NCBI RefSeq assembly: GCF_002157855.1 | Contig: NZ_CP020880.1 | Span: 2,542,001-2,606,000, forward strand | Origin: Sutcliffiella horikoshii | GTDB taxonomy: Bacteria > Bacillota > Bacilli > Bacillales > Bacillaceae_I | Length of the DNA: 64,000 bases | Direction of reading: 5' to 3' | The notes under the pieces: generated by a model | Database searches by the model: none | Told to the model about the DNA's origin: nothing | The model's input: the letters and a program-made list of their open reading frames with translations, nothing else | Translations under genes and position numbers: made by a program | In this document: positions 642 to 62,800 of the stretch, in pieces | Position numbering within the stretch: the first letter of the stretch is position 1 | Layout: each line of letters opens with the position of its first letter

Positions 642-786
642 GACACCGCGGTTGATTTCCGCAAATGGCTTCGCTTTCCTAGGGGCGCTGCTGGAGCCTC
701 CTCGGCTTCGCCTGTGTGGTATCCACCTAGCGCTATCTCCCTCAAGAGTCTTCGCCTTTTGCTCCAATCAACAGCTAGAAACTCCT
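642..786 (+). repeat. Dispersed repeat, type A copy 1 (solo)
   Basis: GC-rich palindromic repeat of about 135 bases. It opens with GTTGATTTCCGCAAATGGC and closes with GCTCCAATCAACAGC, so its ends are inverted repeats (GTTGATT/AATCAAC). The core carries CTTCGCTTTCC and GAGCCTCCTCGGC. Related copies lie at 9385-9516, 21606-21740 and 21933-22060. No gene is seen in 427-850 beyond this repeat, the sigX promoter and the terminator at 815-842. The copy is not followed by a type B unit, unlike those at 9.4 and 21.6 kb. Confidence 0.8.
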
Positions 787-9173: not shown

Positions 9174-9384
9174 ATCTTTCACCTCATTCAACATCTTACC
9201 CGACTTTCACAATAAAAGCCAAGATTTCTCTTCTTCTAGCATTCCCAATGTTTGCAAACTCTAATTATACCTGTTGTTCTCTGCAAAAAGAAAGAGGAAA
9301 TAATAGATATCCGTATTTGACCAAAAACTATAGGGGAAAAAGTAGCTAAAACACCGTTCCACTTTTGGTTGCTTTGTTATGCAC

Positions 9385-9516
9385 GCTGTTCCTTTCCGCA
9401 AATGACTTCGCTTTCCGCGGGACGGTGCTTGAGCCTCCTCACTGCGTTGCGGGGTCTCAACCTACCGTTACTCCCCCGCTGGAGTCTTCGTCATTTGCTT
9501 CAATCCACAGCTAGAG
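9385..9516 (+). repeat. Dispersed repeat, type A copy 2 (left arm of a composite)
   Basis: Same family as 642-786: CTTTCCGCAAATGACTTCGC, GAGCCTCCTCAC, GCGGGGTCTCAAC, CCCCCGCTGGAGTC and TCATTTGCTTCAATCCACAGC. It is followed after 81 bases by an inverted type B unit at 9598-9725, making a composite of about 340 bases. The whole 9174-9773 gap between rluB and spmB holds only this composite and the spmB terminator. Confidence 0.8.
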
Positions 9517-9597
9517 ATTTAGTAAAAGTATTGTTATTGGTTATCAGTAACTCTTTAGGCATCTTTTTTTAGCCATAAGTTAAATGAAGTCACCCAG

Positions 9598-9725
9598 TTG
9601 ATTGGAGTGGAAGGCGCGCAGACGCCCGCGGGAGGAAGGGACAGGTGAGACCCCGGAAGGCGTAGCCTGAGGAGGCTCACGGACCGCCCGCAGGCAAGCG
9701 AAGCGCCTGGAACGCAAAGCAACAG
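9598..9725 (-). repeat. Dispersed repeat, type B copy 1 (right arm of the composite)
   Basis: Begins GTTGATTGGAGTGGAAGGCG and ends with GCGCCTGGAACGCAAAGCAAC. Read on the minus strand it resembles type A (GAGCCTCCTCAGG, GGGGTCTCACC, CTCCAATCAAC). A small hairpin AGGC-GTA-GCCT marks its centre. It is inverted relative to the type A unit at 9385-9516. Confidence 0.8.
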
Positions 9726-9743
9726 TAATATAGATTTCATAAT

Positions 9744-9770
9744 AAAAACGCCGAGATTTTTCTCGACGTT
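9744..9770 (-). terminator. Terminator after spmB
   Basis: Minus-strand stem AACGTCGAGA/TCTCGGCGTT with AAAA loop and following T run, just after the spmB stop codon. Confidence 0.85.
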
Positions 9771-20599: not shown

Positions 20600-20670
20600 T
20601 GGTTGGATTAAAATTGCGTATAGGAAAATAAACAGTGTTCATAAATGAATTTTCACTGCTTGCAATCTAT

Positions 20671-20815
20671 AATCCTTCTCCCATCCAGACTTTCACTGTC
20701 GGCCCTGGAGTTACACCAGATCCACCGCTTTTCTTTTTCAAGAAAACCGGGTCACGGACTAAGAAACATATCGTTTCATCACCGCCGGTAGGGAATTTCA
20801 CCCACCCCCGAAGGA
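20671..20815 (-). promoter_or_regulatory. FMN riboswitch (RFN element)
   Basis: Minus strand shows the conserved RFN segments in order: TTCGGGG, GGGTGAAATTCCCTACCGG, CGGTGAT, AGTCCGTGACCC, GGTGGATCTGGTG, CTCCAGGGCCGACAGT and GTCTGGATGGGAGAAG. It controls the riboflavin operon through the following terminator. The 20532-20894 gap holds only these elements. Confidence 0.97.
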
Positions 20816-20894
20816 CATTCATATGAAGTTGTATACCATTGTTATTTTAGCATATCTTCCTGATAAGTAAAATTTAAAGTTTCAGATAAGTTTG

Positions 20895-21605: not shown

Positions 21606-21740
21606 CGCTGTTGATTTCCGCAAATGGCTTCGCTTTCCATGGGGCGACCTTGAGCCTCCTCGGCAAGCCTGCGGGGGTCCCCACCTAGCGCTATCTCCCC
21701 CAGGAGTCTTCGCCTTTTGCTCCAATCAACAGCTAGAAAT
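21606..21740 (+). repeat. Dispersed repeat, type A copy 3 (left arm of a second composite)
   Basis: GTTGATTTCCGCAAATGGC start and CTCCAATCAACAGC end, with CTTGAGCCTCCTCGGC and GGGGGTCCCCACCTAGCGC inside. After an 81-base spacer an inverted type B unit begins (21819), the same spacing as in the 9.4-kb copy. Confidence 0.8.
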
Positions 21741-21818
21741 TACAAGTACGAAACACTATTGGTTTTCAATATATTAGAAAGATAGCTTTTTTAATCCTCC
21801 GGTGAATGAAGTAACTTT

Positions 21819-21890
21819 GTTGATTGTAGTGGAAGGCGCGCAGACGCCCGCGGGAGGAAGGGACAGGTGAGACCCCACAGGCGCAAGCGA
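21819..21890 (-). repeat. Type B copy 2, left part (split by the IS1182-family element)
   Basis: GTTGATTGTAGTGGAAGGCG, CGCAGACGCCCGCGGGAGG and GGTGAGACCCCACAGGCGC match the first half of the type B unit at 9598-9725. The IS begins at or near the hairpin apex. The remaining half is at 23751-23819. Confidence 0.8.
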
Positions 21891-21932
21891 GGCCACTGAA
21901 AAAGTTCTTAATTTTAGATATTGTTAAGACAC

Positions 21933-22060
21933 CGCTTTTGATTTCCGCAAATGGCTTCGCTTTCCGCGGGGCGACCTTGAGCCTTCTCACTTCGTTGCGG
22001 GGTCTCAACAATGTCGCTTCTTCCCCCGCTGGAGTCTACGCCATTTGCTCCATTCAAAAG
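21933..22060 (+). repeat. Dispersed repeat, type A copy 4, inside the IS
   Basis: TTTTGATTTCCGCAAATGGC start and GCCATTTGCTCCATTCAAAA end, with CTTTCCGCGGGGCGACC inside. Its ends pair as TTTTGA/TCAAAA, a compensated change from GTTGATT/AATCAAC of other copies. It fills most of the gap between the IS left end and the transposase. Confidence 0.78.
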
Positions 22061-22175
22061 ATAAAAATTGAATGTACAATTCGTACTTAATTAAGCAGAA
22101 GAATGTTTAAATTACAACTTTCTTCTGCTTTTTTGTTTTATAATATTTTTATAAAAAGTTTTAGGTGGTATCCAA

Positions 22176-23630
22176 ATGATTTCTAATCAAGAGTCCTTTA
22201 ACCTTAGCCCATTCTCAGCGATATATGATATCGTAGTCCCCAAAAATAATATGCTTCGTCAAATAAATGAACTAGTAGATTTCTCTTTTATTCTTGATGA
22301 ACTAAAAACAAAATACTGTTTGGATAATGGTCGTAACGCTATCCCGCCTATTCGTATGTTCAAATACTTGTTGTTAAAATCTATTTATGATTTGTCAGAT
22401 GTTGATGTTGTTGATCGATCCCAATACGATATGTCATTTAAGTATTTTCTCGAGATGGCTCCAGAAGATCGTGTCATTGATTCAAGTTCATTAACGAAAT
22501 TTCGAAAGCTCCGTCTTAAAGACGTGGGATTATTAGATATGCTTATAGAGAAGACAGTTGAGATTGCATTAGAAAAAGGAATCATAAAAACCAATACCAT
22601 AATAATAGATGCCACCCATTCAAAAGCTCGATACAATCAAAAGTCCGCGACTGAATTTCTACAAGAAAAATCAAAAAATGTGAGAAGAGCTATTTACCAG
22701 ATAGACGAATCGTTAAAATCAAAGTTACCACAGAAGACGACATCTAATGATGTCGAAGAGGAATTAGCTTATTGCCGTAAAGTGATTGATACGGTAGATG
22801 AAATCCCGCAAGTTGCTTCTATACCAGCAGTTAGGGAGAAGTTAAATATACTGAAAGAAGTTGTGGAAGATTACACAGAACAAATAAGTTATTCCAATGA
22901 TCCAGATGCTCGCAAGGGACATAAAACTGCTGACTCCTCTTTTTTCGGATTTAAAACTCATATCGCAATAAGTGAAGAACGTATTATTACAGCTGCAGTT
23001 ATTACAACAGGTGAAAAAAGTGATGGGAAATACCTTCCTGAATTAATTGAGAAAACCGTAAAAGCTGGGATGGAAGTTGATACAGCCATTGGAGATACCG
23101 CTTACTCAGAAAAAAATAATATCTCCTACACAAAAGAGAATAATATAGCACTCATCTCTAAATTAAATCCTGTTATTCAAGGGACTCGTACAAAAGAGGA
23201 TGAATTTGAGTTTAATAAGGATGCAGGCATGTATGTATGTAGGGCGGGACACCTGGCATTTAAGTTAAGACGACAAGGCAAGAAAAATGTGGCGAAAAAC
23301 CGACGTGAAACCTATTACTTTGATATCGAAAAGTGTAAGGTCTGTCCTTTCAAAGAAGGTTGTTATACAGAAGGTGCAAAAAGTAGAACATACTCTATTA
23401 CTATAAAATCAACAGAACATAAAGAGCAGGAGGAATTTCAAAATACCGAAGGTTTTAAAGAAAAGGCGAAATCCAGATATAAGATTGAAGCGAAAAACAG
23501 TGAACTAAAGCATAGACACGGGTATGATACAGCCTCCTCCGCGGGTCTATTAGGTATGGAGGTACAAGGTGCCACAGCGATATTCGCTGTCAACCTAAAG
23601 AGAATACTAAAACTAATAAATGAAAAATAG
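22176..23630 (+). CDS. IS1182-family transposase
   Basis: 484-residue DDE transposase. The N-terminal part holds IRMFKYLLLKSIYDLSDVDV and SSLTKFRKLRL (DUF772-type). The catalytic Asp candidates lie in IIIDATHSKARY, SNDPDARKGHKT and AIGDTAYSEKNN. A Cys-rich segment CKVCPFKEGCY and the closing SELKHRHGYDTASSAGLLGM region are typical. The frame is intact and starts after TTTTAGGTGGTATCCA. It is probably functional. Confidence 0.92.
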   Translation: MISNQESFNLSPFSAIYDIVVPKNNMLRQINELVDFSFILDELKTKYCLDNGRNAIPPIRMFKYLLLKSIYDLSDVDVVDRSQYDMSFKYFLEMAPEDRVIDSSSLTKFRKLRLKDVGLLDMLIEKTVEIALEKGIIKTNTIIIDATHSKARYNQKSATEFLQEKSKNVRRAIYQIDESLKSKLPQKTTSNDVEEELAYCRKVIDTVDEIPQVASIPAVREKLNILKEVVEDYTEQISYSNDPDARKGHKTADSSFFGFKTHIAISEERIITAAVITTGEKSDGKYLPELIEKTVKAGMEVDTAIGDTAYSEKNNISYTKENNIALISKLNPVIQGTRTKEDEFEFNKDAGMYVCRAGHLAFKLRRQGKKNVAKNRRETYYFDIEKCKVCPFKEGCYTEGAKSRTYSITIKSTEHKEQEEFQNTEGFKEKAKSRYKIEAKNSELKHRHGYDTASSAGLLGMEVQGATAIFAVNLKRILKLINEK

Positions 23631-23648
23631 TAAAGTACAACGTTTATA

Positions 23649-23692
23649 GGGCAACTTTTTATCCTTTTCGGAGAAAAAGTTGCCCCTTTTTT
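23649..23692 (+). terminator. Terminator inside the IS after the transposase
   Basis: Stem AGGGCAACTTTTT with AAAAAGTTGCCC, then a T run. Confidence 0.85.
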
Positions 23693-23750
23693 TGTGAATC
23701 TCATTTCTGAATGTTTTTCATTCAAAAATAATTATAGTTTTTCAGTGGCC

Positions 23751-23819
23751 TCGGCGCAAGCCGAGGAGGCTCACGGACCGCCCGCAGGCAAGCGAAGCGC
23801 CTGGAACGGAAATCAACTG
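23751..23819 (-). repeat. Type B copy 2, right part
   Basis: CGAGGAGGCTCACGGACCGC, GCAGGCAAGCGAAGCGCC and CGGAAATCAACTGT complete the type B unit begun at 21819. The end CGGAAATCAAC is the inverse of the type A start GTTGATTTCCG. Confidence 0.8.
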
Positions 23820-33320: not shown

Positions 33321-33550
33321 CCTTAGACCTCCATTCATATTCCTACTTCACATTTTTTCCAAAAAAATATGTTTTATACTAAGTATTGGTAATGGAGGGA
33401 AATAATTTTATCGGAACAAAAATGCACTTACCGTCACGTCGGGTAACTGCCAACAGTCCCAGATACTTCAAAATATTGGCCGGACTTTGTCTTTCCTCTT
33501 CACCCTCTAACGAATGGAGGACGATGAAGCCACCTCTCTTGCTATTCTTT

Positions 33551-33873
33551 GTCACTCAGGTCTTTATACCGCTATGAGGACTTCTCTCCTCCTTTTTCCT
33601 GGTCACTCAGGTCTTCATCACCGTTATGAGGACTCCTCTCCTCCGTTTTCCTCGTCACTCAGGTCTTCATCACCGCTATGAGGACTCCTCTCCCCCGTTT
33701 TCCTGGTCACTCAGGTCTTCATCACCGTTATGACTCCTCTCCTCCTTTTTCCTCGTTACTCAGGTCTTCATCACCGCTATGAGGACTTCTCTCCTCCGTT
33801 TTCCTCGTCACTCAGGTCTTCATCACCGCTATGAGGACTACTCTCCTCCGTTTTCCTCGTCACTCAGGTCTTC
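33551..33873. repeat. 52-bp tandem minisatellite, about six copies
   Basis: Seven occurrences of GTCACTCAGG or GTTACTCAGG begin at 33551, 33602, 33654, 33706, 33755, 33807 and 33859. The unit is 52 bases, with one copy of 51 and one of 49. Each unit contains TCTTCATCACCGCTATGAGG and CTCCTCCGTTTTCCTC; GAGGACTCCTC in some copies is a small palindrome. Since 52 is not a multiple of three, frames change from copy to copy and no repeat protein is encoded. The 33321-33943 gap holds this array, 200 bases of unremarkable sequence and the pdp terminator. Confidence 0.92.
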
Positions 33874-33881
33874 ATCAAGAT

Positions 33882-33927
33882 CTAAAAAAAATAAAAAACA
33901 GCCCCACCAAATATGGCAGGGCCGCTC
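33882..33927 (-). terminator. Terminator after pdp
   Basis: Minus strand AGCGGCCCTGCC-ATATTT-GGTGGGGCT then a long T-rich tract; it ends the deoB-punA-pdp transcript. Confidence 0.8.
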
Positions 33928-33943
33928 TCCAATATATTCTCAA

Positions 33944-62446: not shown

Positions 62447-62800
62447 TTAAACTTCTGTGTTTTTTTCTAACCTATTAACCCTAAATTCCAATTTGGCGTT
62501 TTTCTCAATAAGAAGATCTGTATCAAATTTAAATGAATCCAGTCTTTCGTTTGTGGCGTTGAGTCGTAAATCAATCTTTTTCATATCACGACGGTATTCA
62601 TCTTTATAATCTTTGAACTCAGATTTTAACGTATCAACATCGCTCTTTAATATACTAACATCATTCTTTAATGTACTAACATCGCTCTTTAATATACTAA
62701 CATCACTCTTTAATGTACTAACATCACTCTTTAACTGGCTTATGTCTACCTTCATCTCATTGATTCCTTGCAGAATTTGTTTTAACAGTTCATTTTCCAC
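62447..62800 (-). CDS. Coiled-coil protein with heptad repeats
   Basis: 117 residues. The first half has six or so near-identical heptads of the type DVSTLKS or DVSILKS (residues about 18-60), with hydrophobic a/d positions, so a long coiled coil. The second half is another helix (KKIDLRLNATNERLDSFKFD). DNA in 62637-62741 is a 21-base tandem repeat. AGGTGA precedes the ATG. Function unknown; phage-holin-associated or structural roles are possible. Confidence 0.78.
   Translation of the reverse strand: MENELLKQILQGINEMKVDISQLKSDVSTLKSDVSILKSDVSTLKNDVSILKSDVDTLKSEFKDYKDEYRRDMKKIDLRLNATNERLDSFKFDTDLLIEKNAKLEFRVNRLEKNTEV

Follow-up and report, generated by a model that had tools for sequence, protein, structure and literature searches.

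Repeat units composed of two inverted hairpins and a short spacer occupy at least 40 places in the chromosome of Sutcliffiella horikoshii, where they mostly lie close behind predicted terminator hairpins and in a direction that follows the replichore. Two of them are in the window analyzed here, a stretch of 64,000 nucleotides spanning positions 2,542,001 to 2,606,000 of the 4.28-Mb chromosome. At the level of sequence, the layout is constant, the hairpins covary, the position at terminator-like signals and the replichore orientation recur, and individual sites are occupied in some relatives and empty in others. These features are tentatively interpreted, at a little below even confidence, as those of a REPIN-like element that is non-autonomous, inserts into single-stranded DNA just past terminators, and is perhaps moved by a RAYT-type transposase. 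The landing rule is unusual and testable, and the finding is larger than the initial annotation saw.

The first copy in the window (9385 to 9723) is organized, on the + strand, as arm A (9385 to 9511), a drifting spacer of 85 nt (9512 to 9596), and arm B (9597 to 9723), which is inverted relative to A; both arms are imperfect hairpins of 127 nt supported by covariation. Column conservation across 70 copies identifies an outer block on the A side (9363 to 9384, +; consensus approximately TTTAGTTGATTGGTTAATCGCC), and column conservation likewise places one on the B side (9724 to 9743, +; consensus approximately CNGTATTATATACTTTCTTA). Beyond this is an intrinsic-terminator-like hairpin and T-run (9744 to 9768, − strand) of the gene to the right of B, the spmB side according to the initial annotation; it points at the element and is the proposed target. 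That annotation had described a type A repeat, an 81-base spacer, and an inverted type B repeat at 9385 to 9725, and the architecture stands, with a spacer of 85 nt and an end at 9723 when arm and spacer bounds are set by the hairpin ends.

The second copy was correctly recognized as having the same architecture and an equal spacer length and as being cut by an insertion sequence, although the spacer is again 85 nt and the span is 21607 to 23815. It consists, also on the + strand, of arm A (21607 to 21733), the spacer (21734 to 21818), and an arm B divided into a first part (21819 to 21888) and a second part (23753 to 23815) by an IS1182-family insertion in its tip (21889 to 23752, +), with the short sequence GGCGCAAGC flanking both sides. 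The insertion codes for a 484-aa IS1182 transposase (22176 to 23627, +; NF033551, 358.9 bits) and contains an A-type hairpin close to the left end (21934 to 22061, +). The outer ends of A and B, reported as inverse copies (GTTGATTTCCG), are exactly so in this second copy, but both ends are altered in the unit at 9385 to 9723, where A starts GCTGTTCCTTTCCG and B finishes CGCAAAGCAAC. A further A-type hairpin is present at 648 to 775 (+), with no B partner seen adjoining it.

BLAST of a 351-base query against its own genome returned 305 candidates, of which the best 40 were scored, together with many arm-to-arm cross matches. There are at least 40 near-full places, covering at least query positions 32 to 351, with 39 of them beginning at position 14 or earlier; the exception lacks the start of A and is left out of the own-genome counts below, as is a second, poorly aligned copy (L121) from several of them. 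The 39 places other than the window copy are 79 to 94% identical to it. Order and spacing are the same throughout: the spacer is 73 to 93 nt (median, 88 nt) in the 40 own-genome copies and 80 to 92 nt in 63 of the 70 copies fetched from this genome and its relatives. Mean between-copy identity is 88 to 93% in the arms and 60 to 69% in the spacer, and about 20 nt outside each hairpin are also conserved. This constancy of order and spacing, with conserved arms and a drifting spacer, bears out the earlier proposal of one unit and not chance clustering, and the unit as mobilized may comprise the two inverted hairpins together with some 20 nt of its own sequence beyond each. Patterns of 30 and 29 bases built from the ends match 117 and 133 places, respectively, with up to three mismatches (100 places listed for each), and the reversed patterns match none, a recurrence well outside what chance would give. 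Places with a single recognizable arm are also present, and for each of the two types, 20 of the 51 unpaired places were fetched. Three loci (L162, L166, and L176) have shortened B hairpins without the mid-stem (approximately arm positions 37 to 88).

A match at 1e-10 is present in 48 of 101 related genomes. Full-length matches are restricted to the same genus among the matches listed (7 scored per genome), and other families have single arms; the exact 30-base B end is found, among the matches listed, in S. horikoshii, Bacillus horikoshii, and close Bacillus sp. records. Related single hairpins are also present in further families of the order, so the finding matters for how many Bacillus-type genomes are annotated. 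A search for a phage carrier gave no phage match, and a plasmid carrier was rejected, as each of six plasmid records has one arm only. Within the open-licence literature, no paper was recognized as naming this repeat or terminator-targeting MITEs.

Each arm folds as its own hairpin. The window copy has a minimum free energy of −159.4 kcal/mol (z, −8.7), and its bottom strand −144.6 kcal/mol (z, −5.7). In 53 aligned A-type and 45 aligned B-type hairpins, some of them single or from other genomes, 97.4% of cells are paired in each arm, and compensatory changes on both sides occur in 10 of 30 pairs in arm A and 14 of 34 in arm B, counts reached by none of 500 shuffles in either case. A measure based on further pair types is weaker, being reached by 8 of 500 shuffles for A and 87 of 500 for B. 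A single long A:B duplex was considered and has a lower energy, yet it has compensatory changes at 6 of 94 pairs across 68 copies, compared with 13 of 40 and 8 of 36 for the local A and B hairpins; local hairpins are thus favored because they have more compensatory pairs. Read on the bottom strand, arm A has the same plan as arm B on the top strand, which gives the pair the inverted arrangement of a REPIN.

Covariation does not bear out a structured RNA, which the initial annotation had raised as one possibility, since single-stranded DNA function predicts arm covariation equally. At gathering score, the unit has no match to any Rfam family, including models of ribozyme domains such as domain V; four weak subthreshold matches (E up to 5) are taken as chance. 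The numbers of G.U and A.C cells are 18 and 19 in A and 16 and 4 in B (Fisher test, P = 0.026 for cells and P = 0.08 for pairs); the contrast is stronger on another alignment, and strand polarity from this source is not relied on. The unit is read as a mobile element resembling REPINs and not as an established RNA.

The position of the units relative to predicted terminators is highly regular. On the B side, an intrinsic-terminator-like hairpin and T-run reading toward the element is found in 36 of 39 own-genome copies, compared with 8 of 39 on the A side; a stricter test gives 31 and 4 of 39, and a control region 230 nt past B has such a signal in 4 of 39. The distance from the T-run to B has a median of 25 nt, with the middle half at about 23 to 28 nt, and a T-run of at least 4 within 60 nt of B is present in 37 of 39 copies (34 at 17 to 37 nt), whereas on the A side such runs occur in 23 of 39 and are scattered over 4 to 56 nt. 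The B-side hairpins can also be read in the opposite sense in 19 of 39 copies, as expected of bidirectional terminators. A mini-hairpin with a T-run, a candidate further part of the element, is found on the A side, bottom strand, in 14 of 39 copies, compared with 3 and 6 in controls. Copies in relatives show a similar pattern, with terminator-like hairpins and T-runs on the B side of 22 of 29 and on the A side of 8 of 29. The terminators are not carried in by the element: they are present at three sites in genome G012 that lack it.

Single hairpins share this placement in part. Among 18 of the 20 fetched single B places (L164 and L173 were dropped), 11 have a terminator signal on the corresponding side and 5 on the other; single A places have 10 of 14 on the homologous side and 4 of 14 on the other, with 11 of these 14 having been chosen for orientation. 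In two other genomes, single hairpins have a terminator on the expected side in 8 of 14 (G062) and 4 of 14 (G014) cases and on the other side in 1 of 14 each, two loci (L253 and L250) not having been located for this count. With automatic ORF calls, the right-hand (B-side) gene points at the element in 38 of 40 own-genome copies, 21 in tandem and 17 in convergent pairs (neighbor classes '--' 21, '+-' 17, '++' 1, and '-+' 1, some resting on ORFs of 51 to 85 aa). A first count, confined to ORFs of at least 90 aa and the first 30 copies, gave '--' 16, '+-' 10, and '++' 4, and on reading, the '++' cases are ones in which small genes were missed.

Orientation also follows the replichore. The contig opens with genes resembling dnaA and dnaN (read by eye), the GC skew flips at 2.09 to 2.15 Mb, and the A-to-B sense runs against fork movement in 39 of 40 scored composites; a free search for the best ori/ter split also gives 39 of 40, and shuffles reach at most 32. 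Agreement with the replichore extends to 46 of 49 paired ends found with the end patterns and to 95 of the 100 B ends listed (of 117), and it falls to 35 of 51 for A-type ends that have no B partner listed. Among relatives, 86 of 96 agree in G001 and 38 of 44 in G002, using ori/ter points chosen by the author inside the skew brackets. Because genes lean to the leading strand, with a coding share of about 0.83 (mean of 20 samples), the fair tests are weaker: against this baseline, P is 0.005 for the own composites, 3e-4 for the own listed B ends, 0.05 (marginal) for G001, and 0.36 (not significant) for G002. Convergent gene pairs are the cleanest test, in that either gene could host the element, and B is turned toward the leading-strand gene in 16 of 17 pairs, compared with an expected 50% (P = 1.4e-4), or in 9 of 10 among the first 30 copies with ORFs of at least 90 aa.

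It is possible, if doubtful, that the terminator alone sets the direction, with entry into double-stranded DNA and the replichore bias arising as a by-product of leading-strand genes. The terminator rule is very strong (36/39), the 0.83 baseline accounts for G002 and nearly for G001, and the single hairpins of G062, a genome of another family, lie behind terminators as described above (8 and 1 of 14; 4 and 1 of 14 in G014) in the absence of a replichore bias: no ori/ter split of the 64 single hairpins of G062 exceeds shuffles (38, compared with a mean of 40.4). In G014, 15 single hairpins look mixed in direction. This account is at odds with the convergent pairs and with the composites (39 of 40) and the B ends listed (95 of 100), both of which exceed 0.83.

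The orientation with the replichore and the facing of B toward the leading-strand gene place the terminator hairpin and T-run on the lagging-strand template. In the favored scheme, the terminator of a gene co-directional with the fork would be exposed on that template as a single-stranded hairpin followed by its T-run, a single-strand transposition complex may recognize the two, and the element would be joined immediately 3′ of the T-run, starting with its B side, while a RAYT-type Y1 transposase would work on the hairpins in trans. The complete proposal, that a DNA-only hairpin element lands at exposed lagging-template terminator hairpins and T-runs through a Y1 (RAYT) enzyme and in this way reached the target rule of group IIC introns, is possible but doubtful, although it would have consequences. 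The two arms differ, so each copy records its direction, and copies could reveal the strand used in REPIN-type transposition, which is hidden by symmetric REPINs. A readable direction, a landing site defined within a few bases, and same-site comparison across close species together make single-strand, replication-coupled insertion directly testable.

Group IIC introns, as described in passages of PMC4424553 and PMC10190682, similarly enter intrinsic terminator hairpins and do so on the lagging strand, and the present units are a candidate second kind of element reading terminator hairpins as DNA structures. They differ from these introns in being about 340 to 430 nt long without ribozyme domains or a reverse transcriptase (RT). 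The shared target and strand use nonetheless raise an alternative in which a structured RNA is copied in by a group II intron-type RT, as in group IIC introns at lagging-strand terminators (PMC4424553 and PMC10190682, in the same passages), and five RT matches of group II type are present in the genome, each of them co-directional with the fork. It is improbable, as Rfam matches no ribozyme domain in the unit, and the four intron loci searched are typed by Rfam as D1D4-5 and D1D4-6, with no terminator evident in their 5′ flanks. The five RT matches represent two group II intron types and are at G000 C1:346914, 565948, 3245402, 3259945, and 3848762.

The likeliest mover, by inference, is the single RAYT-type Y1 (HUH) transposase coded in the genome, which would act in trans on the hairpins. 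A Y1 family search finds one Y1_Tnp gene (56 to 58 bits), whose product matches the NCBIfam model REP_Tyr_transpos at 77.8 bits, slightly below the cutoff of 80, and has TnpArep 4er8 as its closest solved structure (E = 1.5e-4). Each of the 10 further members of the genus for which full units are listed has a RAYT relative with 80 to 92% identity. Across the 101 genomes, co-occurrence of hairpins and RAYT is 41/7/28/25 (P = 4e-4), and with the own family removed it is 24/6/28/25 (P = 0.012), both values being uncorrected for kinship. The passages of PMC6006769 and PMC8266576 describe the RAYT family as acting on single-stranded hairpins, and PMC6006769, in part, describes REP-type RAYT genes as frequently flanked by repeats, with some subclasses not. 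Here, a hairpin lies within about 1.5 kb at just 1 of 30 RAYT loci. The RAYT matches have one or two stop codons in G001, G007, and G012 and are in two pieces in G015, so some carriers may no longer have a functional gene, and G006 has B-type hairpins and no RAYT match. Because the gene is unflanked by repeats and is interrupted in some relatives, the assignment is a circumstantial one. It stands in place of the earlier suggestion of a non-autonomous element moved by an unknown transposase, in which mobility is upheld by occupied and empty orthologous sites and the fixed place behind terminators, with the mover unproven.

The units have much in common with REPINs and BIMEs and their RAYTs as portrayed in passages of PMC3116915, PMC3733652, PMC6006769, and PMC8266576: a pair of inverted hairpins separated by a short spacer, numerous extragenic copies close to gene 3′ ends, and a RAYT-kind Y1 transposase in the genome. 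Two units in inverted orientation forming the replicating unit, by which a REPIN is recognized, are likewise found here. However, the same passages give REPIN arms of 20 to 40 nt, compared with about 127 nt here, a GTAG or CGTC tag where the hairpin begins, and a repeat-flanked RAYT gene, whereas the present gene is unflanked and no such tag is seen by eye at the foot of B, with A ending in ACAGCTAG. Set against those descriptions, the present A and B also differ enough to tell direction, and the units are tightly placed behind terminators. The spread of REPINs and similar palindromic repeats is still unsettled. PATEs are palindromic, non-autonomous, hairpin-bearing elements derived from IS200-IS605, and they share non-autonomy, hairpins, and an expected single-strand movement with these units; no IS200/IS605 parent whose ends match came to light, and the Y1 family search gives the one gene in the genome. 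The bcr1, Bhal-1, and other Bacillus stem-loop repeats described in passages of PMC2267715 are also many-copy and intergenic, with listed sizes of 72 to 167 bp.

All five full-length IS1182 matches (L400 to L404, including that at 21889 to 23752 in the window) sit in the tips of A or B hairpins, with about 8 bp repeated on either side by reading, and there are two IS1182 fragments besides. REPs are known as IS targets (PMC1525189), and the passages on them in that source do not name IS1182. The units could alternatively be MITEs moved by IS1182 or by a DDE transposase responsive to the polarity of replication, which it could sense, for example, via the sliding clamp. In keeping with such an origin, some single A hairpins in G011 lie between IS1182-like ends (by reading), and IS1182 itself carries an A-type hairpin. 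IS1182 ends are found on none of 70 composites, however, and the five full copies are insertions into hairpins, one of which has an IS-free composite as its counterpart in G001, making this origin a distinctly poor candidate.

Sites turn over among relatives. At the window site, 7 of 16 genus genomes have some form of the element, complete in G000, G001, and G007 and shortened or interrupted in G004, G008, G009, and G012, and the other nine (G002, G003, G005, G006, G010, G011, G013, G014, and G015) have no arm. Three composites of G000 within 20 kb are absent from G012, where loss is possible. Occupied and empty sites were found, although not a clean empty site with a proven boundary; for a clean target duplication there is a single candidate, GACAAA, and the G012 sites (ii) and (iv) are not clean. 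An insertion at L222:6621 (approximately 154 to 166 bp, in G007 and G012 and absent from G000 and G001) was first taken as a single hairpin and is unrelated by reading. A tandem family of GAAGACC/GGTCTTC-type units is present at L211 and L233, close to spmB in G015 and elsewhere in G007.

Many copies are old, with site and direction common to 27 orthologous pairs at 16 sites. Spacers are nonetheless often closer to those of paralogs: L001 and L002, at different sites in one genome, have spacers 93% identical, compared with 53% and 64% to their respective G001 orthologs and 84% between L001 and its G007 ortholog, and L019/L029 (89%) and L021/L030 (86%) have a similar cross-site likeness. Some orthologs do retain their spacers, as with L100/L101 (95%) and pairs among G004, G008, and G009 (98 to 100%). 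The outer left block is on average 70% alike between orthologs and 54% between paralogs, though not in every pair. This pattern of spacers and outer blocks is read as gene conversion, by which interiors are probably exchanged between sites through the conserved arms.

The retention of site and direction in these 27 pairs, the arms being 88 to 93% alike compared with 60 to 69% for the spacer, and the scarcity of copies near the origin would also suit a host-useful element held by selection, such as a backup terminator, a 3′ UTR structure, or a replication-oriented signal. Site content that varies by species, interiors swapped across sites, and copies that decay or receive IS insertions argue against such a role, which is considered unlikely. 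Elsewhere in the window, Rfam identifies a cobalamin riboswitch (2042 to 2243, − strand) and an FMN riboswitch (20669 to 20819, − strand), and there is a tandem repeat at 33527 to 33929 with a period of about 52 bases and six overlapping copies, as well as direct repeats at 62625 to 62750 with a 21-base period and five overlapping copies.
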